Virus record (IMG/VR): IMGVR_UViG_3300037993_000246
Location: 1 to 24,388 of that record
From: a virus
DNA: 24,388 bases
Reading direction: 5' to 3' (one strand)
Shown: positions 1 through 22,952 of the stretch, one piece after another
Layout: the number at the start of each line of letters is the position of its first letter
Numbering within the stretch: the first letter of the stretch is position 1
Notes under the pieces: model-generated
Seen by the model: the letters and a program-made list of their open reading frames with translations, nothing else
What the model was told of the DNA's origin: nothing
Database searches by the model: none
Translations under genes and position numbers: made by a program

Positions 1-850
1 AGTTATAGCAGTAAAGGGTTTGGAGAGCCGTCAGCCCGGAGAAGTTCAAAGAAGTAGCGGAGGTACAGCTATTGCAGTCAAGGTAGGTAAGCGCCGTCAG
101 CCCGGTGAAATCCAAGGAGGGGACGGGATTGTTGTAAAAGACTAACCCTGTAAGGCTGGAAAGTCCAGTCACGTTGAGAAACGTCAGGTTCGCTTCCGAT
201 ACGTCAAGAAACCCTGTTCCGTTCCCTGCGAATGACACGGTATATAGCCCAAGACTTCCATAAGTATAGGCATAGGTCGGACCGTCGTCGGTAGGTCCGC
301 CTGTGGCGAGGGGTTCCAGCATCGGTATGCTTCCGTCTCCGGGGTCAAAAACAATGACGGGAAGGTTGTTCTGGGTAAATCCAAAATCACCAGTAAAATA
401 GACAGGAATCCTGTAGCCGAACCCGAAGCTTGTGGAGCCCAACCCTATGATAAAACTGAACTGCTGGGCATTAGGCCATGTTGAATTCTGCCATTGCCCC
501 AAGGTCGGGTTCCAGATGTAAAGCCCCGGCAGAACTCCTGTAGTAAGCAGCGCTTGTTGACCTTCCACGCCGAGGTCGGGCAGGGAGGTGACGATGGACA
601 ACGGTCCCACAGTCTCGTTCGTCGGTGCAGCCGCCACGATACCGTTGTCCAGCCAGTATTGCACGGTCAAAGGGGGGACTTGTATGTCCCCGAGATAATC
701 TTGGCTACGGTAGAGGTGGGCTATTCCCCCGTCTTCATTGGGGTCGAAAGACAGGATGTCGTTAACCAAGACATACTGCTGCACAGGCGTCTGGTACACG
801 GTGTCGAACCGTATAGCATTAAACGGTTTGAGAACTTGATAATTGGGCAA
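1..850 (-). CDS. Leucine-rich-repeat virion/tail protein, C-terminally cut by window edge
   Basis: The frame is open from a TTG start at 850 to the left edge (283 residues visible), so the C-terminus is missing. The TTG lies one base after the TAA of the upstream membrane-protein gene; the only Shine-Dalgarno-like sequence is a weak GAAAGAG. The first ~200 residues are not recognised (start MPNYQVLKPFNAIRFD). From about residue 215 there are at least three leucine-rich repeats of ~22 residues with the pattern L(D/N)F(T/S)GLTALxxLxC, including GLTALTYLDCNSC and GLTALQTLYC. This is the BspA/internalin-like type that usually forms a ligand-binding solenoid. Position downstream of Ig-like virion proteins suggests an exposed tail-fibre or adsorption protein. 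The repeats are visible; the role is inferred. Confidence 0.62.
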   Translation of the reverse strand, partial: MPNYQVLKPFNAIRFDTVYQTPVQQYVLVNDILSFDPNEDGGIAHLYRSQDYLGDIQVPPLTVQYWLDNGIVAAAPTNETVGPLSIVTSLPDLGVEGQQALLTTGVLPGLYIWNPTLGQWQNSTWPNAQQFSFIIGLGSTSFGFGYRIPVYFTGDFGFTQNNLPVIVFDPGDGSIPMLEPLATGGPTDDGPTYAYTYGSLGLYTVSFAGNGTGFLDVSEANLTFLNVTGLSSLTGLVFYNNPVPSLDFTGLTALTYLDCNSCTSATSLNFSGLTALQTLYCYN

Positions 851-851
851 G

Positions 852-1163
852 TTAGTGCTCTTTCAATTCCAAAATGTTGTGGACGACTACCCCGGCATAC
901 AGAGCGTCAAGGACCCCCAGCGCCCATGCCGCTGCCATCGGATACCCGCAAAGGAGAATCCCGGCTCCCAAGGCGGCACACAGTCCCTTGGCGGCAACAA
1001 TCCCCCCGTTGGTCCCGAGCCGCTTGATAATCAAACCCGTGACAGGGTCCCCCTCTTTTAATCCCGGAGTGGACAGGGCAAGCTTGGTAGTGATGCCATC
1101 CCCCGCCTGCAAGGCAAAGTAAGTTATGAATAACAAATAAGAAAGGCCCACAATATCCTCCAT
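852..1163 (-). CDS. Small membrane protein (DUF5658-like)
   Basis: A 103-residue protein with an N-terminal hydrophobic stretch (about residues 5-20) containing a DGITTK motif, a charged middle segment, and a long hydrophobic region from about 53 to 97 that could make two further membrane helices, ending in a charged tail LELKEH. The Asp in the first helix and a second LDALYAG segment resemble the DUF5658 family of small membrane proteins of unknown function. It sits between two virion-surface genes, and its TAA is one base from the TTG of the LRR gene, suggesting translational coupling. A holin-like role is possible from size and topology, but nothing in the sequence shows it. No strong Shine-Dalgarno precedes the ATG. 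Confidence 0.6.
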   Translation of the reverse strand: MEDIVGLSYLLFITYFALQAGDGITTKLALSTPGLKEGDPVTGLIIKRLGTNGGIVAAKGLCAALGAGILLCGYPMAAAWALGVLDALYAGVVVHNILELKEH

Positions 1164-1194: not shown

Positions 1195-1791
1195 TCAAGT
1201 TCCCACCGGAATCACCACAATAAGATACGGTCCGTTTATGGGAGGGGTGTCATTTCCAATAGCGGCATCCTGAAAAGGAAAGGACGGAACATTGCCCTGC
1301 CCGGCAGAGAAGCATCGGGAGTTGGTGGTAAAAGTGGCAGAGTATAACTGGGTATAAAAGGATGGGGAGATGTTATGGGTGGTGCTCGAATCCAAGATGT
1401 CGTCCATGACCAGCACCACGGAGCTACTGCTGACGTTTATGACCGGGGTGTTACCATTCGTGTCTAAGTTTCCATAAGATACGGCTGGCGTGCCAGCGCC
1501 AGCTATCTCGCTAAGAACGAACCACCCCTTGTAGTAGGGGCCAGTGGGGATGCTCACGGTAAGGCTGGCGCTGTCCCCCGCCTGTGCCGTTCTCGTCCAC
1601 ACTAGCGCCCGATTGTTGTTGTATCCAACTGTCGGAAAAGTCTCATCTAGTATACTGGTGTATCCCGGCATGTCATAGACGGGATGCCCACTACTTATAT
1701 CCGTCCCAAGGCTTTCAAGGACCATAAGGCTTCCGGGGGCGGGGGCGGAAGGGAGGGTAATGGTGAAGGAGTTGTGGCCCATCGCCGTCAC
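1195..1791 (-). CDS. C-terminal copy of a repeated virion module, separated from upstream gene by an in-frame amber codon
   Basis: A 198-residue frame from a GTG at 1791 to TGA at 1195. It is homologous by eye to residues ~1-220 of the 598-residue Ig protein: both have a (F/L)Pxx(P/A)xPG(N/S)xM segment, then RxAQAGD, then an EI(T/A)G segment. The match runs upstream of the GTG, through SIDVV, to a TAG at 1804-1806 that is in the same frame and ends the 325-residue Ig protein. No Shine-Dalgarno sequence precedes the GTG or the ATG at 1782, unlike nearly every other gene here. It is therefore either the C-terminal module of a 1804-2781 protein made by amber readthrough, a remnant of a broken gene, or a poorly initiated separate gene. 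Probably an all-beta virion-surface module. Confidence 0.55.
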   Translation of the reverse strand: MTAMGHNSFTITLPSAPAPGSLMVLESLGTDISSGHPVYDMPGYTSILDETFPTVGYNNNRALVWTRTAQAGDSASLTVSIPTGPYYKGWFVLSEIAGAGTPAVSYGNLDTNGNTPVINVSSSSVVLVMDDILDSSTTHNISPSFYTQLYSATFTTNSRCFSAGQGNVPSFPFQDAAIGNDTPPINGPYLIVVIPVGT

Positions 1792-1803
1792 TACATCAAT
1801 AGA

Positions 1804-1806
1804 CTA
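1804..1806 (-). other. In-frame amber codon between two halves of a probable virion protein
   Basis: The TAG ends the 325-residue Ig-like protein (...ITIVGLA). The same frame then stays open for 203 more codons (TCT ATT GAT GTA GTG ...) to a TGA at 1195. In a comparison with the start of the 598-residue protein (PQIVQVGYS), the TAG falls where that homologue has Gln. Confidence 0.7.
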
Positions 1807-2781
1807 TGCCAAACCTACGATGGTTATCAGCACATTCTCCGTGGTTACGATGTTCCCCGAGGAGTCGTATGCTATGCATGTTACTACCGTACTTACTGAA
1901 AAACCATCCACAAATTCGTAAATTCCTGAACCGTTAGTGTTTATCAGGGTGGGAGCGCCCTCGATACTCACCGCTGCCACATTGTTGCTACTCCACAGGA
2001 TATAGACCGGTGTACCCGCTGTGGTGGTGGAAGGCACCGCCGTAAAAGTAGCCCACGCCGGAAGAGAGGTATCTCCCTCAGTACTGTAAGAAGCAAAGAG
2101 AGCAAATCCCGGCAAATCAAACAGTTCCGTGCCCCTCTGGCTCAAAACAAGTTGGATGAGGTTGATGTTTGATGAGTTGTAGGTGGTATCCCCACTATAC
2201 GCTGCCGTGATGAGGTGAGTGCCCGTGGACAGGGTGGAGATGGGTCCGTAAGAGGTTGCCCCGGCAACCAAAGAGAGCGTCTGCGGGGGGAAGCCACTCA
2301 GGCTGTCGGTCAACGTAATCGTTCCCGTAGGTGTCCCGGATGACCCGGTCACTGTGATGTTAAAAGTGACCGCATCTCCGTACCGGGAAGGGTTTTCCGT
2401 GCTAAGAAGGGTGAGAGTGGGGACCGCCTTGGACTCCACGTTTTGGGTCAAAAAATTACTGCTACCAGCAAAGCTGTAGCTTCCAAAGGAGTACTGGTCC
2501 ACGGTCTGTCCGACCGTCTGCACCCCTGAATTGTAGTTTACATCCCCGCTGTAAGTGGCGGTGATGGTGTGGGAGTTGACGGTAAGAATGCTATCGGTAA
2601 ATAGGGCCGCTCCACTGGCGAGCGTCACCATCCCCATGGTCCCATCCAGATTGGATGAGAAGGTCACCGTGCCTGTGGGCGTTCCGGCACCGCCGCTTAT
2701 CGTGACGACAAACTGCACCGTCTCTCCCGAATAAGAAGTGGACGGGGTATTGACTAGCAGGATTGTGGGGGTAGAGGGCAT
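1804..2781 (-). CDS. Ig-like repeat virion protein (325 aa)
   Basis: ATG at 2781 lies in a TAATG overlap with the upstream gene and is preceded by a strong GGGGGAGGTG. It contains two bacterial Ig-like (Big_3_5 type) domains. The first is at about residues 1-90, with GTPTGTVTF and HTITATYSGDVNYNSG. The second is at about 118-207, with GTPTGTITLTDS and HLITAAYSGDTTYNSS. A third Ig/PKD-like beta domain runs from about 235 to 325. Such domains typically decorate phage capsids or tail fibres and bind carbohydrate surfaces weakly. The second domain shares the PQTLxLxxGATSY signature with the last Ig of the neighbouring 598-residue protein, so the two arose by duplication. It ends at a TAG followed by an open in-frame extension, so the mature protein may be longer. 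Confidence 0.75.
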   Translation of the reverse strand: MPSTPTILLVNTPSTSYSGETVQFVVTISGGAGTPTGTVTFSSNLDGTMGMVTLASGAALFTDSILTVNSHTITATYSGDVNYNSGVQTVGQTVDQYSFGSYSFAGSSNFLTQNVESKAVPTLTLLSTENPSRYGDAVTFNITVTGSSGTPTGTITLTDSLSGFPPQTLSLVAGATSYGPISTLSTGTHLITAAYSGDTTYNSSNINLIQLVLSQRGTELFDLPGFALFASYSTEGDTSLPAWATFTAVPSTTTAGTPVYILWSSNNVAAVSIEGAPTLINTNGSGIYEFVDGFSVSTVVTCIAYDSSGNIVTTENVLITIVGLA

Positions 2782-4577
2782 TAGGCACCTCCCCCGTATG
2801 TTGCTGTGATGGTGTGATAGTCAATGGCAAGAGCGGTAGTGCTATAGGATGTCGCTCCACTCGATAGGGGAAGAGTCTGAGGGGAGAAACTACCCACGTC
2901 GTCGGTCAATACCACATTGCCCAAGGGGTATCCGGCTCCCCCGAAAACTTGCACCACCACGTAAGGAACTTCCGTGCCTGAACCCACACTGATATTTGCC
3001 GTAACCGCAGAGTTGGGAACCATGCCAAGGTAAGCGGCGGAGTCGGCGTTCAACCATAGAGGTTTAGCATATCCACTGGGTAACCAATTGGTTAAATTAC
3101 CCCAGCCTGCGGTACGGAAGAAACAGACAATTGCCAGTCCCGGACCTCCGGGCAAAACCGGAGTGGTGAGCAGGCTGTTACCGGGGCTGACATAGGTGCT
3201 GACCACGGTGCCTGCCGCCGCCCATATGACGGGTGTTCCGGCAAGTTCAATCATGTAATAGTCGTTGGCTGCGCCGTTATCATTGCTATCCGGCTTCGTG
3301 AAAGTCCACACCTTACCGTCATCTGATTCTACGATGTGCGTCCCCACCGTGGCGTTGGCATTACCGTTCCAAAAACTGCCGAGACAATCAAACTCCACAG
3401 GTAAGACGGAGGGGGAGTTTCCGTGGTTCACTCCTCCGATAGCCAGCATGATGTTGCCTATCGTGGGGAAATTCGACAAGGTTACCGTGACGGTTGTATC
3501 CCCGCCGTTGCTACTGGAGGATTGCACGACTGCGGGGGCAACGGGAGCAACCGTTATGTCGAATTCAACGTTATCTCCGAAAAACGATGGGTTGAGGGTG
3601 CTGCTGACGGCGGTTGTAGAGTTGAAATCCAAGCTGCTTTCAACCTGTTGTTCAAGGGTCGAAGACATGGGAGCGTAGGTACCGTCTCCACTATAAGCCG
3701 CCGTTATGCTATGAGCGCCTGCGGTGAGTGAGCTTACTACACAAGAGGCTATACCATTCACCAGAGGAAGGCTGCTTCCAAGCACAGTGCTGGTAGTCGT
3801 ATCCGTTACCGTCACCGTCCCCGTGGGGATGGAAGTGGGGCTTCCTATGGCATTGATGGAGATAAGCAACGGGGTAGAAGCAACCGAAGGGTTGGGGTTG
3901 GAGGATATGATAACTGACGGCAAAGCGACGGGTCCTGCTACGATGGCATTCCACGCCGGGGTGGAAACCCATGTCGCTGTTCCAGTGACCGTGTTGGGTG
4001 GAGGACTGCCAGCGGCGGAGAGGAATGCGGCATAGGCGTAGTTAGCGGGACTGCCGGTGTGGGTGGAATCCCCAAATTGATGTTGCAGCGTGTAGCCAGC
4101 GGGGAGGAACCCGCTTCCCGTTACTTGCTGGTCCCACACGAATGCCACTAAAGCCAAACTGGGACTGAGGACGGGGAAACTCGCCGTCATCGTACCGGTG
4201 GTGCTGGGAGTGGGGTTGGCTTGTCCACTGTGATAAGTCAAAGTGGGCTGCCCGGTAATCTCTACCAGAATTCCATCTTGTACAGCGGTGTAAACTTCAC
4301 TGTCACCACCGATGTAAAAGTTATAAGTCTTGCCATCTCCAGCTTGAGCAACCCTTGTGAAAGCCGCCCCGCCATAGGTAGACTCATCGAATCCATTGAA
4401 ATAGTTCCAATTGCCGGGACCGAGGACGTTAAGAATACCATTGCCGCTGCCCACTGTGAAGAACAGCATGGTGTTACCGGGGGTAGGGGTATTGGGGAAA
4501 CTGGTATTCCAACTCGCTATGGGTCCATCATTGCGAGAGTAACCCACCTGCACGATTTGTGGCGCTTGTAAGGGCAT
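2781..4577 (-). CDS. Ig-like virion protein with a nested repeat module (598 aa)
   Basis: ATG at 4577 overlaps the previous stop (TAATG) and has GGGGAGG upstream. Residues ~1-220 form a beta-rich module (SFPNTPTPGNTMLFF, FTRVAQAGDGKTYNF, ILVEITG). Residues ~221-312 are an Ig-like domain (PTGTVTVTD ... HSITAAYSGDGTY). A second Ig starts at ~320 (SSTLNPSFFGDNVEFDITVA), but its usual PxGxVxLTD strand appears only at ~551 (PLGNVVLTDD ... YHTITATYGGGA). The ~200 residues between are a divergent second copy of the N-terminal module (LSNFPTIGNIMLAI, DDGKVWTF, YYMIELAG). It is probably a tail or capsid-surface protein; the fold assignment is by motif only. The last Ig ends early (YGGGA) right at the gene junction. 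Confidence 0.75.
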   Translation of the reverse strand: MPLQAPQIVQVGYSRNDGPIASWNTSFPNTPTPGNTMLFFTVGSGNGILNVLGPGNWNYFNGFDESTYGGAAFTRVAQAGDGKTYNFYIGGDSEVYTAVQDGILVEITGQPTLTYHSGQANPTPSTTGTMTASFPVLSPSLALVAFVWDQQVTGSGFLPAGYTLQHQFGDSTHTGSPANYAYAAFLSAAGSPPPNTVTGTATWVSTPAWNAIVAGPVALPSVIISSNPNPSVASTPLLISINAIGSPTSIPTGTVTVTDTTTSTVLGSSLPLVNGIASCVVSSLTAGAHSITAAYSGDGTYAPMSSTLEQQVESSLDFNSTTAVSSTLNPSFFGDNVEFDITVAPVAPAVVQSSSSNGGDTTVTVTLSNFPTIGNIMLAIGGVNHGNSPSVLPVEFDCLGSFWNGNANATVGTHIVESDDGKVWTFTKPDSNDNGAANDYYMIELAGTPVIWAAAGTVVSTYVSPGNSLLTTPVLPGGPGLAIVCFFRTAGWGNLTNWLPSGYAKPLWLNADSAAYLGMVPNSAVTANISVGSGTEVPYVVVQVFGGAGYPLGNVVLTDDVGSFSPQTLPLSSGATSYSTTALAIDYHTITATYGGGA

Positions 4578-4864
4578 TAGAGAGCCTCCCCATATTGGAA
4601 CGGTGGGCTAGGCATGTGGTGGATGACCTGTATCACCCCTTGCAGGTTGAATGGCCGGTTGGCGAACAGCAGGTACCGATTGTTTACGGCGTCGTAAGAG
4701 GCATTTTGAATCACCAGCGGTATGCCATCCACGTAAACCTCCACATCCACCGTGGGGTCAAACTCTACCGGTGGGCTGGTAGGCTTAATAAGCGGACCGA
4801 TGTAGTTGCCCAACAGGAGTTGGATGCGGTTCGGATAGGGCGCATTGGTAACGGCGGTCAGCAT
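4577..4864 (-). CDS. Small virion-region protein of unknown function (95 aa)
   Basis: A 95-residue protein joined by TAATG overlaps at both ends, so it is probably translated in step with its neighbours. It has no membrane segment or cysteine motif. The sequence alternates short hydrophobic strands (IQLLLGNYIGPL, VDVEVYVDGIPLVI, RYLLFA), consistent with a small beta fold. Its place between the SWIM protein and the Ig-like proteins suggests a small structural or assembly part of the same surface structure. I do not recognise the family. Confidence 0.65.
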   Translation of the reverse strand: MLTAVTNAPYPNRIQLLLGNYIGPLIKPTSPPVEFDPTVDVEVYVDGIPLVIQNASYDAVNNRYLLFANRPFNLQGVIQVIHHMPSPPFQYGEAL

Positions 4865-6063
4865 TATTCCCCACTCTTAAGGAACTTCAAAAACTCCTCG
4901 TATCCTTCTTCGGAAGCATACTTCTCAATCATGCTCATCTCCAAGCTTGTGCGCTTGCGGAGTAGTTTCTTCCACCACTCACCGGGTATCTTCTCCTGCA
5001 ATCGCTCTAACCACCGTCTCGGTAGGTTGGGCTTCTTCCTTTGCTGGAGCTTCTTCTCCTCTTGCTTGATAAGGTCGTTAAGGTCCGGCTGTTTCTTGGG
5101 AGCGGGGGCTGGCGGCGGTGTAACATTTGTGGCCTTTTCATCCCGTTTGACTACCTGCTGCTTGGGTGGTTGCGGAGGCTTGGGGGCCGGTCCCTTCGGC
5201 TTTGGCTCCATGGGCTTGGGAGCCGTGGGTTTGTTCAACGGCGGCAAGGCGGGCGGTTGCTCCCCCTTACCCCTCTCCAACTTCTCTGTCTCTTCCTCCA
5301 GAAGGTCGTCAATCATCTCCTTCTGCTTGTCGGGGTCTGTGGTCTTCACAATCTGGTCAATTTCTTTGCGCTTGCGCATCTCTTCCTGACGCTCTTCCAG
5401 CCGAATGCCCTTCTCAGTTGGGATTTCCTCCTCCAACCGCTTCTTGTTAAGCTCCACCTGCCGCTTGCGCACAATGTTCTGGATGTTGTGCTGAATAGCG
5501 GGCAGGATGCGCTCGAAGACCGTCTTGACATGCTTGCAGATAACGAAGTTGCCCCGGAGGTCTAACCGTTCTGTGGGGGCTTGTAGAAGAGGCCGGGGCT
5601 GCCCATGCAGACCGTCCCGCTGGTGGAGATTCCATTGTGCGCCCCAATACAGGAATGCCGGGCAGGAGCAGGAGACCCGGACATCAATCTGCCTTGCATC
5701 CTGTGTTTTTTCCACCTGACTTAAATCGAACTGGACTTGCACGTCGTGTCCCTTGGGGTCGGAATAATTCTCGTGGCAGGTGACCTTGTAGGCAAGGTAA
5801 AGCTCCTTGGGTTTGGAACTGATGGGCTTGACCTCGCACCCGGCCCGGCGCTTGACGGAAAAAGCATTGGTCTGCCGGATGAGTTCCGGGAGGGAGATAG
5901 CTACCTTGGTGAAAGGTGGAGAAGTGAGGGATATGGGGATGCTAATCCATGTGCCTTGTTTGACTTGCCATGGGTTATATCCTCCCAGAATCATCCTGCT
6001 GAGCATCTGCTGGAAGTCTGGGGTCCAGTCTGGTGCGAGATTTTGCACTTGCGCTAAAGCCAT
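4864..6063 (-). CDS. SWIM-type zinc-finger virion-region protein (399 aa)
   Basis: The start is placed at ATG 6063 rather than the in-frame ATG at 6075 because AGGGAG lies between the two, well spaced for the second. Residues 132-178 carry CSCPAFLYWG ... VICKHV, a CxC...CxH pattern like SWIM zinc fingers with a long insert. SWIM domains bind nucleic acid or protein. From about 195 to 350 the protein is a charged, proline/lysine/glutamate-rich probable coiled-coil and disordered region (PKPMEPKPKGPAPKPPQPPK), followed by a basic, helical C-terminus. Such CSCPAF...CKHV proteins occur in structural regions of large phages, to my recollection without a defined role. It lies downstream of a GIY-YIG gene and couples by TAATG to the 95-residue gene. 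Confidence 0.68.
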   Translation of the reverse strand: MALAQVQNLAPDWTPDFQQMLSRMILGGYNPWQVKQGTWISIPISLTSPPFTKVAISLPELIRQTNAFSVKRRAGCEVKPISSKPKELYLAYKVTCHENYSDPKGHDVQVQFDLSQVEKTQDARQIDVRVSCSCPAFLYWGAQWNLHQRDGLHGQPRPLLQAPTERLDLRGNFVICKHVKTVFERILPAIQHNIQNIVRKRQVELNKKRLEEEIPTEKGIRLEERQEEMRKRKEIDQIVKTTDPDKQKEMIDDLLEEETEKLERGKGEQPPALPPLNKPTAPKPMEPKPKGPAPKPPQPPKQQVVKRDEKATNVTPPPAPAPKKQPDLNDLIKQEEKKLQQRKKPNLPRRWLERLQEKIPGEWWKKLLRKRTSLEMSMIEKYASEEGYEEFLKFLKSGE

Positions 6064-6080
6064 AGACTCCCTCATCTATG
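6061..6080 (-). promoter_or_regulatory. Possible hairpin holding the SWIM-gene start codon
   Basis: Perfect 6-bp inverted repeat CATAGA (6061-6066) and TCTATG (6075-6080) with an 8-base loop. On the minus-strand RNA the loop contains the Shine-Dalgarno AGGGAG and one stem arm contains the start codon at 6063. It may be chance; no expression data. Confidence 0.35.
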
Positions 6081-6092
6081 AACTGAAAAGCC

Positions 6093-6722
6093 TTATGAAT
6101 TTCTCTTACGTTTTCCCCGCATTAAGGAACGAGAGATTTCGGTGTGTTTCTTACCAAAAAACGGGTTACTTTTACCGGACATTTTTTGACGAATTTTTTC
6201 CTTTGTTGTTTCACTACAGGGAATCCCCCTCCTCCCTTTACTAATTTTTCGGCATGTCTCTAAGGTTGGTTTTCTTCCAAGACTAGCTTGACGTAGCTTT
6301 TCTATGGTTTCCAGCGTAAATTTCCGACTACTATTCCACTCTCTCAATGCCTGTTTTCGTTCTTTGGTCCACGCTTTTGACATTTTTAATCTGGTCTCAA
6401 GGGTGTGACTGCCGGTGTGTCCCTCCCCTCCGCTACAAAGATTATATCCTATATCCGGGTAGTGAGACCCGAGAGCTTTTATAAGAAATCGTTCCCAATA
6501 ACAAAGTTCTTCATTGGTTTGTAAATCAGAAATTACGGGGTGAATGCTCCATACAGAAGAGGGACATTTCCACATAGCTGAAAAAAGGTGGGACCCTCCT
6601 CGATAATTTCCTTTGATAGCATCGCTAATTTTTCTTCTTAAATAAGAGTTTAAGTTAGAACCGATGGTTTTGCCAACGTAGATTTTAAGAGTTTCTTGAT
6701 TAACTATGATGTAAACAAACAT
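6093..6722 (-). CDS. GIY-YIG homing endonuclease with NUMOD3-type repeats (209 aa)
   Basis: The N-terminal GIY-YIG nuclease domain shows YIIVNQETLKIYVGKT (Tyr4 and the YVG at 15-17), arginines near 29-30, the catalytic Glu context CYWERFLI, and GYNLCSGGEGHTG closing the domain. Downstream are repeated short DNA-binding motifs of NUMOD3 type (SLGRKPTLETCRKISKGRRG, KSNPFFGKKHTE). These selfish nucleases cut DNA to spread into phages lacking them. The gene is more AT-rich than its neighbours and is wedged between the 138-residue gene and the SWIM-protein gene, so it is probably a recent free-standing insertion. Its Shine-Dalgarno GGGGA (6731-6735) lies in a predicted hairpin stem. Confidence 0.9.
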   Translation of the reverse strand: MFVYIIVNQETLKIYVGKTIGSNLNSYLRRKISDAIKGNYRGGSHLFSAMWKCPSSVWSIHPVISDLQTNEELCYWERFLIKALGSHYPDIGYNLCSGGEGHTGSHTLETRLKMSKAWTKERKQALREWNSSRKFTLETIEKLRQASLGRKPTLETCRKISKGRRGIPCSETTKEKIRQKMSGKSNPFFGKKHTEISRSLMRGKRKRNS

Positions 6723-6728
6723 TTGAAA

Positions 6729-6772
6729 AATCCCCTATAAAGCCTTTAGGTAGTTCAAAAGTTACGGGGATT
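6729..6772 (-). promoter_or_regulatory. Inverted repeat sequestering the GIY-YIG ribosome-binding site
   Basis: AATCCCC (6729-6735) and GGGGATT (6766-6772) are perfect 7-base complements. In the minus-strand RNA the downstream arm contains the GGGGA Shine-Dalgarno of the 6722 start. The upstream arm overlaps the TAA stop of the 138-residue gene, so ribosomes finishing that gene would open the stem. The 30-base loop is long, so the effect is inferred. Confidence 0.5.
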
Positions 6773-7187
6773 AAGAGGGGGAAAGCTGGCTTTCCGTAGC
6801 TTCCTGCGGAGGGGCTTCATCAACGGGTGTTGACTCCACTCGTTTACGGCGCTTGAACGCTTTCTCGGTGGGAGGTTCCTCTTGAGGCAACGGGAGATGA
6901 GGAAGATTCTCCATAACATCCTTAGCGACCTTCTCCGCTGCGGCGGAAGAGATAAGCGCCATGCCTTCCACTTTACCGGCAGGTATCTTGACTTCCAAGA
7001 GGAACTTGCTTTTCAGAAAAGCCTCAATGACCAACGGAGCGACCTTGATGACCTTCTCAAATTTGCCGTTCCGAAAAACCGTGAGAGAGTTTCCATGCTT
7101 GGGGTCATAGGATAGCTGGTCCCCCGGTCGCACATAGAACTTGTAACCCTCAAAGTTTATCGTACTATTTGCCACAAAACTCTTCAT
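6771..7187 (-). CDS. Unknown 138-aa protein downstream of capsid genes
   Basis: A 138-residue protein with an ordered-looking N-terminal ~95 residues, beginning MKSFVANSTINFEGYKFYV with a short basic helix-strand mix, and an acidic/proline-rich, probably disordered C-terminus (PQEEPPTEKAF, VDEAPPQEATESQLSPS). GGGGGTG lies ahead of the ATG. There are no cysteine motifs or membrane segments. It follows the 144-residue gene by 22 bases in the same transcription direction, so it is likely co-transcribed late in infection. Family not recognised; a small head or head-completion protein is a guess from position only. Confidence 0.6.
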   Translation of the reverse strand: MKSFVANSTINFEGYKFYVRPGDQLSYDPKHGNSLTVFRNGKFEKVIKVAPLVIEAFLKSKFLLEVKIPAGKVEGMALISSAAAEKVAKDVMENLPHLPLPQEEPPTEKAFKRRKRVESTPVDEAPPQEATESQLSPS

Positions 7188-7209
7188 TTTTCACACCCCC
7201 GTTAATGGG

Positions 7210-7644
7210 TCAGATAGCGTACTCCTGCTTGATTTCCTTAATTTCCTTCCGATTCCCGGCAATGAACTTAATCAACCCCTCGGCATACTTGGTCTGCCGT
7301 TCGTCCCCGGAAAGGGCCTCATAATCAGCCTTGGTCTGAGTGATTTGTCGTTGCAGGTCCGCAACCCGTTTCTTTGCTTTCGCCAATGCTGTTTCTTCAT
7401 CAACGCTGGGAACACGTAGATACGGGTCGTAATCGTTCACCCCCTCGAAGCCATCAGGCAGAATGACGCAGGTTTCCAAGTCGGTGTCAAACTGTAGCCT
7501 AAGATATTCACCGTCAATAAGGTAACGGCCTACAAGTTCATCAACCTTGTCGTAAGGAAGCTTGCTTTGACGGGCAAAGGAATGAAGGTTAGACTCCAAA
7601 TCCTCATCGTCCGGGCAGTAAAGTGAAACCGTGAATCGGGGCAT
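7210..7644 (-). CDS. Unknown 144-aa protein with C-terminal coiled coil
   Basis: The start is placed at ATG 7644 (MPRFTVSLYC), which has a strong GGAGGAG seven bases or less upstream. The longer open frame back to 7803 runs through the capsid-gene terminator and the capsid 3' end and is not likely coding there. Residues ~1-75 look mixed alpha/beta. Residues ~85-140 (ETALAKAKKRVADLQRQI ... RKEIKEIKQEYAI) have heptad-like spacing of hydrophobic residues in a highly charged helix. It lies just past the strong terminator following the major capsid gene, so its transcript needs readthrough or its own promoter. Function not recognised. Confidence 0.65.
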   Translation of the reverse strand: MPRFTVSLYCPDDEDLESNLHSFARQSKLPYDKVDELVGRYLIDGEYLRLQFDTDLETCVILPDGFEGVNDYDPYLRVPSVDEETALAKAKKRVADLQRQITQTKADYEALSGDERQTKYAEGLIKFIAGNRKEIKEIKQEYAI

Positions 7645-7690
7645 AGACTCCTCCGTAGGATAATACTGAGTTTCGGAGGAAAGGTGGGCT

Positions 7691-7728
7691 AAAAAGAGAA
7701 CGGCGGGGGTCCCGAAAGACCCCCGCCG
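7691..7728 (-). terminator. Strong intrinsic terminator after the major capsid gene
   Basis: Perfect 11-bp GC-rich stem: CGGCGGGGGTC (7701-7711) and GACCCCCGCCG (7718-7728), with a 6-base loop. On the minus-strand RNA the stem is followed by TTCTCTTTTT (7700-7691). It lies 26 bases after the capsid stop codon and should end the capsid transcript. Confidence 0.88.
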
Positions 7729-7753
7729 TGGAGTTGTACAATCAGAGGGGCGA

Positions 7754-8755
7754 TTAGTTCTCGCCGATGTTCTGACCGGTGATGAAGGACTCGTACCGAC
7801 CATTGACGGTAAGCCGTTGAACTCCCGAAGGATTGAAGACTAAAAATCCGAGATTCTCAAAAATCGAAAACCCGATTTGCCTCAAATCCGGGCGGTCTGC
7901 CGACATAACGGTGAGCGGGATACGCTCCGGGATGACGCCCAAGAACTCGGCATCAGCGAGAATGTATACGCAGCCGTAGCCGACTTTACGGGACTGGAGG
8001 AGTGTAGCCCCCCACAGGTAGCCCATGACGCCGGTCTTGAGTAGCTTACGCTGCGTCTCACGGTCGATATTTTGCTGCGTCCACTTCAACAGGTCCGTGT
8101 AGTCACGGGGGTTGAAGAAACAGAACGCAACCGACAGGTCATGCCGCTGCACCTGTCCGAATCCATCAGCCATGGAGTTGATGTCAATGGGAGCGCTGAT
8201 GGCGATGTCCCCATTGTAGACTGGGTCAAACAGGCCCGAGCCTGCCTTGGCAACGTTGTCGGCAGCCACTTGCGTGTTGGCTGCGGCGGCAACTGCGTCG
8301 AACAATCCGAAAACGTATCCGTCTTCGGCTGCGCCGACTTCCGCCTTGGCGAGGTTCAGAGAACGAGCGACCAAGTCGAACCGACGTTCCTTAATCTGGG
8401 TGATGGGAATCATCGGGTTGCTGACGATTTCAAAGGTCGGAACGGTGACCCGCTTGGGCTTGGTGACCCGAACGATGTCTCCGCCTTCCTCACCAACGAC
8501 GAAGGCTTCAACAAATGACCCACCCGGTGTGCTGGACACCGTCTGTGCCATGATGTCAAATTCCTTGTCATAGATGGGGAGTGCGCCGTCCGGTAGCGTT
8601 TCGACCATAAGAGCCTTGCGAGCAATGCTCATATAGTCACGACGCCGACGAAGGGACGGTCCGAGGCTAGCGGCAAGCTTTTGGCGTCCGCCAGCGGTCT
8701 TGAGAAGCTGACCCAACATAGCAGTCTGCTGTTGGGTACGGGAAAGATTTGCCAT
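7754..8755 (-). CDS. Probable major capsid protein (HK97-fold)
   Basis: A 333-residue protein preceded by a strong AGAGG Shine-Dalgarno and followed by the strongest terminator in the window, as expected for the most abundant virion protein. It has a basic, helical N-terminal arm (about residues 1-45, LRRRRDYMSIARKAL), then LPIYDKEFDIMAQTV, and a C-terminal QIGFSIFENLGFLVFNP segment with alternating strands. This fits the overall plan of phage capsid subunits. The size, and position after the prohead protease, scaffold and decoration genes, support the call. A KTAG at residues 19-22 could be a maturation-cleavage point. I do not see a diagnostic catalytic motif, because capsid proteins have none; the fold is inferred. 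Confidence 0.78.
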   Translation of the reverse strand: MANLSRTQQQTAMLGQLLKTAGGRQKLAASLGPSLRRRRDYMSIARKALMVETLPDGALPIYDKEFDIMAQTVSSTPGGSFVEAFVVGEEGGDIVRVTKPKRVTVPTFEIVSNPMIPITQIKERRFDLVARSLNLAKAEVGAAEDGYVFGLFDAVAAAANTQVAADNVAKAGSGLFDPVYNGDIAISAPIDINSMADGFGQVQRHDLSVAFCFFNPRDYTDLLKWTQQNIDRETQRKLLKTGVMGYLWGATLLQSRKVGYGCVYILADAEFLGVIPERIPLTVMSADRPDLRQIGFSIFENLGFLVFNPSGVQRLTVNGRYESFITGQNIGEN

Positions 8756-9684: not shown

Positions 9685-10335
9685 ATGCAAATCTACTTGG
9701 TGACTAATCTTGTTAACAACAAGATGTACGTCGGACAAACAATTCAGAGCGTAGAAAGGCGATGGCGGAAACACCTTAGCAACGCTAGGATGGGGCAACA
9801 AGACCGTCTCTATCAGGCCATCCGCAAATATGGACCAGAGGCATTTATAGCAGAGGGCCTAACCCGATGTAATAGCCTGGAACAGATGAACAACCTGGAG
9901 AAGCTCTGGATTGCCTTGCTTGGGACTTACGATTACGAATCAGGATACAATATGACGCCTGGAGGAGACGGACGCCCCGTACTTTGCACAGAAGAAACAA
10001 GAAAAAAGATAAGTAAAACACGCAAGGGCCAACCTTGCCCGCAATCAACGAAAGAGGCGGTTGGTAAACGGCATAAGGGGAAACCCAAGCCCATATCTCA
10101 ACGGCAGAAGATGGCTGCCCACTGGAACACTGAAACTGAACAGGGTAGAAACCGACGTTCAAAACAAGCGGATGTTGCCCGCCAAGTTAACGCTATCGAA
10201 AATGTCAAACTTAAGGACTACACCTGTCCCACCTGTAAGAAAGAGTTTAAACAGGTGACAAAGGGAGCATATGGCGGTCATCGCAAGGCGTGTCTGTTTT
10301 GGAATATTCCCTATGAGGGTACTGTTATCGAATAA
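9685..10335 (+). CDS. GIY-YIG homing endonuclease with C-terminal zinc finger (216 aa)
   Basis: One of only two plus-strand genes supported here. The N-terminus MQIYLVTNLVNNKMYVGQT gives the GIY-YIG motif (Tyr4, YVG at 15-17). It is followed by the conserved Arg in RRWRKH, the catalytic Glu context NNLEKLWIAL and GYNMTPGGDG. Residues ~110-140 contain NUMOD3-like DNA-binding repeats (RKGQPCPQSTKEAVGKRHKG). The C-terminus has a CPTCKKEF ... GGHRKAC finger (CxxC...HxxxC). It lies between the scaffold-like gene and the decoration/capsid pair, against the direction of transcription. It is more AT-rich than the neighbours and probably a mobile insertion. It replaces no structural gene. Its ribosome-binding site is buried in a predicted hairpin. 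Confidence 0.9.
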   Translation: MQIYLVTNLVNNKMYVGQTIQSVERRWRKHLSNARMGQQDRLYQAIRKYGPEAFIAEGLTRCNSLEQMNNLEKLWIALLGTYDYESGYNMTPGGDGRPVLCTEETRKKISKTRKGQPCPQSTKEAVGKRHKGKPKPISQRQKMAAHWNTETEQGRNRRSKQADVARQVNAIENVKLKDYTCPTCKKEFKQVTKGAYGGHRKACLFWNIPYEGTVIE

Positions 10336-18205: not shown

Positions 18206-19099
18206 TTAAGGTACTGATAAATGAGAATTTATTTCAATGTGTTTCTTACGGGGGTGGCTCTGGGCCTTTGCCTGTTTCTTCCCGACCTTCGGGTCACACA
18301 TAGGACTACGCCCACCATAACGTTCCAAGTTAGTGGTATCTCGTTTTGATAGTAAAGTTGAACTAAGCATAGGGTTGCTTACACCATATCTAGCAAGAAG
18401 AGTATATTTTGTCTTTCGCTTAATTTCCGCATCACTAAAAGTCCGTAGATTCTTCCAATGACTTGGACATTCACAGAAAGTATTAGAACAGCACGGCCTC
18501 TCATATTTCCCTAACAAAAACTTGGCATTGGTACCACAGCCGTAAGAACACAGCTTAGAGGAGTCATCTATAGGCTTGGATATCATCTTTTTCTTACACT
18601 GACAATAGGCGGGACATGCCCCGTGATGGCTGGAACAGCAGGGGTTTTCTTTATTTCCAATCAAGAAAGCGGCGGCCAACCCGCATCCATACCGACATAG
18701 AAGGTGAGAATCGGGAAGGATGGAAATGAAATGGTTCTTTGAACCCCTTGGTCGCCCTGTATTGCCTTTCTCCTTAGCGATACGACCGGCCTTTCTAGGG
18801 TCGGACAACCCTTGTTCGTTGATGTATTTGAAACCACCCTTGCCGCCTTCATGCAGATTGTAGCAAAGCGGGTCCTGCCGGGCATTCCGTAATAATTCTA
18901 CCTCCTTCGTATATGCCTCTGCGGAAACCTTAAATGTAAATAGGATGTCTTTCTTGAAGTTATGCTTACCATACTTCCTGACGGCACGCTTAATGGCAAT
19001 CCCCGAGCCAAGATAATTGTCATTTGGATTATTAGTTTCGTGAACGCCGTAGTAGTAACGGCGATTGAGAAGATTGATAACCTTATAGACGTTGAACAA
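18206..19099 (-). CDS. GIY-YIG homing endonuclease with Cys-rich repeats and YGVxNP motifs (297 aa)
   Basis: The TTG start at 19099 has GGAGGT four bases upstream. N-terminal GIY-YIG domain: VYKVINLLNRRYYYGVHET (Tyr5; YYG at 16-18), then NYLGSGIAIKRAVRKYG, the Glu in TKEVELLRN, and YNLHEGGKGG. Two ~50-residue Cys-rich repeats follow (LCRYGCGLAAAFLIG...CCSSHHGACP and LCSYGCGTNAKFLLG...CCSNTFCECP), probably zinc-binding DNA-recognition units. The C-terminus has RYGVSNPM and RYGGRSPM, matching the YGVxNP repeats of other phage homing endonucleases. It lies just downstream of the tail tube gene. It is AT-rich and probably a mobile insertion. The non-ATG start and upstream hairpin suggest low or regulated expression. 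Confidence 0.88.
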   Translation of the reverse strand: MFNVYKVINLLNRRYYYGVHETNNPNDNYLGSGIAIKRAVRKYGKHNFKKDILFTFKVSAEAYTKEVELLRNARQDPLCYNLHEGGKGGFKYINEQGLSDPRKAGRIAKEKGNTGRPRGSKNHFISILPDSHLLCRYGCGLAAAFLIGNKENPCCSSHHGACPAYCQCKKKMISKPIDDSSKLCSYGCGTNAKFLLGKYERPCCSNTFCECPSHWKNLRTFSDAEIKRKTKYTLLARYGVSNPMLSSTLLSKRDTTNLERYGGRSPMCDPKVGKKQAKAQSHPRKKHIEINSHLSVP

Positions 19100-22499: not shown

Positions 22500-22952
22500 T
22501 TACGCCACCGCCTTCATAACAAGAGGTTTGTGGGAATTCAGGTAAGTTATCAAGCATTCAAGGCGAGAAACGGAATCTTTAACTGACCCAAGAGCGACAT
22601 TACATGAATGACACAAGACCCCTCTGATTTCCTCGGTTTGATGATTGTGGTCCAACGACCACCCGTTTTTGTTTCCTGAGTTTGTAGAGCCACAACATGC
22701 GCATTTTAAACCTTGAGCCTCAAGAATCTTCTGTTTGTCCTCTATTGTTATTCCGTATTTGTGACGAAAATTCCTTATGGTGTTCTTTCTCCTGATTTCA
22801 GGTCCTTTTTCTGAATGGTACCGATGAAGACCTCTTTTGTTTTGGCATAATTTGCAATAACGGTCAAACCCATCCGAAGAGCGAGCAAGGCGATGGAAAT
22901 TCGCCTCGTTCACTTCTTTCTCAGTCCGGCACATTTTGCAAAACTTCATCAT
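22500..22952 (-). CDS. Endonuclease VII/HNH-type homing nuclease (150 aa)
   Basis: The C-terminal half has the recombination-endonuclease-VII pattern: KYGITIEDKQKILEAQGL then CACCG, the catalytic SLDHNHQTEEIRGVLCH segment, SCNVALG, and a final D-L-YL segment. Cys pairs bind zinc and DHNH carries the catalytic His-Asp. The N-terminus has another zinc-type pair of fingers (CKMC, CKLC). It is inserted between the tail sheath and the 155-residue gene, is more AT-rich than both, and is probably a free-standing homing endonuclease rather than a Holliday-junction resolvase of the phage's own replication machinery. AGGA precedes the start. Confidence 0.85.
   Translation of the reverse strand: MMKFCKMCRTEKEVNEANFHRLARSSDGFDRYCKLCQNKRGLHRYHSEKGPEIRRKNTIRNFRHKYGITIEDKQKILEAQGLKCACCGSTNSGNKNGWSLDHNHQTEEIRGVLCHSCNVALGSVKDSVSRLECLITYLNSHKPLVMKAVA

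Follow-up and report, generated by a model that had tools for sequence, protein, structure and literature searches.

We consider it fairly probable that the TAG codon closing a 325-aa Ig-like surface protein of this phage is an ordinary working stop, that the block of genes behind it was acquired, and that the beta-sandwich module lying in frame past it is at most a weakly made second product. Related phages usually have the terminator just after this Ig domain, with a different neighbour behind it, and the module lacks start signals of its own. From these we infer acquisition by recombination, with reinitiation as the route of translation. The TAG would terminate the Ig-like protein at the usual end of its family. 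Recombination would have brought a block made up of the surface module, a DUF5658-like gene and a leucine-rich gene, and the module would sit in the Ig frame by chance. It would have arrived without a start codon, a ribosome site and the first strand seen in relatives, or have lost them at the joint. Ribosomes that had just ended at the TAG might restart at GTG 1791 or ATG 1782 and give a weak second product, or the module may be silent.

The first-pass annotation had an in-frame amber codon split the Ig-like protein from the module. It overlooked that this family usually has the Ig domain as its C-terminus, so the newcomer is the module and not the stop. The arrangement resembles the usual reshuffling of surface modules in phages, in which the stop is old and the module new; if so, it is a snapshot of such shuffling between neighbouring phage genes.

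The locus and its stop codon

The window, that is, the whole stretch of DNA analysed, comprises the 24,388 bases of a virus record. Family matches to tail sheath, major head protein and head maturation protease were found among its genes, indicating that it is the structural region of a tailed phage. The sheath gene points to a contractile tail, and the Ig-like protein is presumably carried on the virion. The phage is related to very large phages. Genes resembling homing endonucleases (GIY-YIG with NUMOD3, endonuclease VII) lie amid the structural genes at 9685-10335, 6093-6722, 18206-19099 and 22500-22952, the matches at 18206-19099 being below the Pfam cut-off. All genes in the region of the Ig-like gene are on the minus strand, and the features used below are as follows.

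4577..2781, minus strand: 598-aa neighbour; two modules of the same family, one N-terminal and one apparently within an Ig domain
2781..1804, minus strand: Ig-like surface protein of 325 aa with repeats of the Big_3_5 type and an Ig-like domain at the C-terminus; PF16640 in two stretches (E=5.8e-26); ends in TAG
1806..1804, minus strand: TAG stop of the Ig-like gene, common to two other contigs of the strain
1803..1195, minus strand: open frame 3' of the TAG, with the beta-sandwich module; 202 codons, then TGA (1197-1195)
1791..1789, minus strand: GTG, first in-frame start candidate, 12 bases past the TAG; without Shine-Dalgarno
1782..1780, minus strand: first in-frame ATG, 21 bases past the TAG; without Shine-Dalgarno; upstream of the detectable homology
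1163..852, minus strand: small DUF5658-like gene (E=0.0052, below the Pfam cut-off); without Shine-Dalgarno; found in this strain only
850..2, minus strand: leucine-rich-repeat protein, truncated at the contig end; LRR_4 match (E=2.8e-5) slightly below the Pfam cut-off

The Ig-like protein belongs to PF16640 (Bacterial Ig-like domain group 3), which it matches with 91.3 bits against a Pfam cut-off of 35.5. Its TAG was confirmed in position and codon as first annotated. The frame behind it is indeed open, but for 202 sense codons before the TGA and not for the 203 originally counted. In the translation of the 598-aa protein (window 2781-4577), read by eye, the second module seems to be inserted in an Ig-like domain, with Ig-like sequence on both sides.

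A sequencing or assembly error, one of the options first offered for the TAG, has next to no probability. The window does come from a metagenome assembly, but the junction is identical in 3300009548_000045 and 3300018026_000134, two contigs with different metagenome ids. Over 16,315 aligned positions one of these has six differences from the window, which all lie at 40-73 in the leucine-rich gene near the contig end, and the other shows no difference across window 1326-7803. Judged from their sequences, the three contigs with the junction are one strain. This indicates that the TAG is real.

The end of the Ig-like protein in related phages

The C-terminal Ig domain was compared with that of 13 other records. 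By inspection these fall in six sequence groups, so that they do not amount to 13 independent cases. The protein ends with the domain in 12 of them (five groups), with TAG in 11 and TAA in one, and the stop lies one codon past the strand matching VLITI of the window protein. Only in the thirteenth (L241) does the protein continue past the Ig domain, into other domains. The TAG is therefore the ordinary C-terminus of the family. In the window it lies four codons past the last Ig strand against one in the relatives; it is thus not base for base the relatives' stop, and the terminus is equal within three codons. In a broader and weaker set of Ig matches, some proteins have 10-21 residues past the domain and a few have more (L073, L057 and L101). 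A pattern search with alignment A3, which has fewer rows, gave no new contig. The comparison of related genomes for a sense codon at this position, as originally proposed, thus found the protein ending there in 12 of 13 records, and the module directly 3' of the Ig domain in none of the 13. Conversely, alignment A1 contains eight module homologues, and in no case is the homologue preceded by a C-terminal Ig domain.

A different small gene (script-called) begins 31-106 bases past the stop in the 12 records. Its product carries K(I/L)A.(V/I)DA near the start and has no likeness to the module. The closest relatives, a 237-kb and a 317-kb record, share DNA of 93% identity with the window, and this similarity does not extend past the Ig gene. 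A conserved stem, CCCTTTATAGGG, considered behind the Ig gene was dropped, as its matches in the window and one relative were no more than expected by chance.

The block of module, DUF5658-like gene and leucine-rich gene is absent at this place in the 12 relatives. No close match was found in related loci for the module, for the DUF5658-like gene or for the N-terminal stretch of the leucine-rich gene, and weak module matches occurred in three of 48 other related records. Searches for a donor of the module gave two same-strain records in viral_contigs and none in genome_contigs (single-protein pattern searches, which reach close relatives only), a single weak match of 38 residues in phages (E=0.3) and none in plasmids. 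As no donor was found, acquisition is read from the absence of the module in relatives.

The 317-kb relative 3300041809_000571 (L221, L222, L223 and L224) carries about 60 tRNAs, which by the ARAGORN labels serve all twenty amino acids, together with a tmRNA (RF00023, 124 bits) and an RNase P RNA (RF00010, 191 bits). A literature search for RNase P RNA together with jumbo phages gave a single paper, on an amoeba virus. At L225:830-930 the 237-kb relative has a tRNA-like gene that scores 58.7 bits, over the Rfam cut-off. Its variable arm is long and, in the loop read by eye, GAT takes the anticodon position; ARAGORN made no call there.

The module and its upstream edge

The region past the TAG had been described as homologous to the 598-aa protein, and this homology is real though weak. 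The pairwise BLASTP comparison is not significant (E=0.26), but a profile built from 11 other module sequences (eight distinct modules) matches the frame with 48 bits, and the module carries the conserved P, G and D of the family. The family occurs twice in the 598-aa neighbour and also in related phages; 15 of 50 records matched at E<=0.001, two of them of this strain. AlphaFold2 predicted a beta-sandwich (pTM 0.81, mean pLDDT 77). Among 851 Foldseek matches of the module to structures none reached E<=0.001 (best E 0.053), and the best VIA-align match was to Red clover necrotic mosaic virus (Z 5.2, rmsd 2.9 over 84 residues), with no clear fold; the module is therefore called only a beta-sandwich. 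A sequence-based search of solved structures gave one match (lactadherin, E=0.68) for the module profile and none for the Ig profile.

The second half was said to lack a Shine-Dalgarno sequence while its neighbours have strong ones. The first part holds: the pairing energy is -1.5 kcal/mol at GTG 1791 and -2.6 at ATG 1782, against a median background of -3.1 in the window. The second part holds for the Ig gene (-12.6) and the 598-aa gene (-11.5), but other window genes pair weakly (-3.4, -3.5 and -3.9) and the DUF5658-like gene has no Shine-Dalgarno (+0.6), so that a missing Shine-Dalgarno does not set the half past the stop apart. Neither a start with Shine-Dalgarno nor a stop-start overlap was found for the module, and it does not look like an independent, well-initiated gene. 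According to PMC10666635, reinitiation at +14 nt was lowered by 40-80% in three E. coli pairs, was almost abolished at about 20 nt and was near zero at +38. By these distances weak reinitiation is possible at the GTG (+12), and less so at the ATG (+21).

The similarity was also said to begin right at the stop, before any plausible start, and this did not hold up. With a profile built without the window module, the match starts at residue 9-10 past the stop, downstream of both GTG 1791 and ATG 1782. When the 27 residues around the stop were scored, 1133 of 2000 random peptides did equally well or better, in a test whose power is limited, since its leave-one-out control recovered five of eight homologues (random peptides did as well in no more than 5 of 1000 cases) and missed the other three true ones (201, 424 and 947).

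There are, nevertheless, features that a separately started gene leaves unexplained. The TAG had been matched to Gln in the 598-aa homologue, and our alignment bears this out: Gln is present there in all eight module homologues, and the spacing here, 20 residues, is the commonest, being found in three of the eight. When the modelled sequence had Gln in place of the TAG and began eight residues upstream, an extra strand (residues 7-14) ran across the TAG; in the model of the part past the stop alone, residues 1-11 are coil. As the Gln was set by hand in the alignment used for the read-through model, that model leans toward a strand across the TAG. Together the Gln alignment and the modelled strand suggest that the edge of the module may have been cut at the TAG or once have lain before it. 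The module was probably cut off, either having been joined so or having been split by a nonsense change. Either event may have occurred, as the present evidence fits both truncation at the joint and a nonsense split.

For the second of these, an in-frame fusion of Ig protein and module would have formed by recombination, and a sense codon would later have changed to TAG, making the module a silent remnant. We regard this as possible but rather unlikely. It would account for a TAG that faces the conserved Gln at the commonest spacing, for a joint just past the last strand of the Ig domain, for the modelled strand and for a module without start signals. However, the fusion is present in none of the 13 other records, the random-peptide test gave no family signal flanking the TAG (though it missed three of eight true homologues), the strand was modelled on a hand-set Gln, and the residue before the TAG is Ala, whereas V or I precedes the Gln in the eight homologues. 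The nonsense mutation of the first-pass annotation thus keeps a modest chance as the splitting of a short-lived fusion.

Readthrough and comparison with known systems

Programmed amber readthrough, by which a minority of the Ig proteins would be extended by the module, is unlikely, and we give it little credence. The open frame, the module with its conserved P, G and D and the domain-to-domain joint would be as expected, and there is a precedent in frameshift recoding that adds domains to phage virion proteins (PMC5009743). The same option was raised at the outset, together with a search for a suppressor tRNA, but no positive evidence for it emerged. No CTA anticodon was found among the 60 ARAGORN tRNAs in four tRNA-bearing stretches of the 317-kb relative (two had no anticodon call), nor any tRNA in the 39.6-kb contig of the strain, whose genome is known in part. 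RNA folds in four stretches around the stop were no better than shuffles (z -0.87 to 0.95), and the arrangement of Ig domain, TAG and module was conserved in none of the 13 other records. TAG followed by T is, besides, a poor suppression context.

The TAG is also an ordinary stop in the Ig family and elsewhere in the window, where it ends four of 23 mechanically called ORFs of at least 100 aa, the Ig gene included; the pattern of a sense codon, unused as a terminal stop and frequent inside genes, was not found. When such ORFs were counted in the window plus L229 (part of the strain's other contig, beyond the window), three of the seven other TAG-ended ones were followed by 248-307 open in-frame codons, and each of these three is followed by a gene with a purine-rich ribosome site and an ATG of its own. 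The opening seen here is therefore not unusual. Same-frame neighbours are common in gene-dense phage genomes, and an open frame past a TAG is weak evidence for readthrough in them. It is similarly improbable, and slightly more so, that the amber on the conserved Gln is passed by a few ribosomes, leaving a minority of surface fibres with an extra module; if true, the phage would test a newly acquired domain in small amounts ahead of permanent fusion.

A working stop with an acquired module behind it, the reading we prefer, can be set against three known systems. Like the Big_3_5 phage surface proteins, the Ig-like protein has tandem Ig-like domains and is encoded near structural genes (sheath, head protein and protease); unlike them, it has an extra module in frame past its stop, where the 13 other records have none. 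Ig-like extensions of phage virion proteins are made through frameshifting (PMC5009743), and these share with the present case a two-domain arrangement with a boundary between the halves; here, by contrast, the two halves are in the same frame and separated by an amber codon, no recoding signal was found, and the arrangement is not conserved. Finally, there are phages that read TAG as glutamine (PMC9523058 and PMC10607447), in which, as here, a structural gene has an open frame divided in two by a TAG. In our phage, however, TAG is a normal terminator, and a matching suppressor tRNA was not found among the tRNAs searched.
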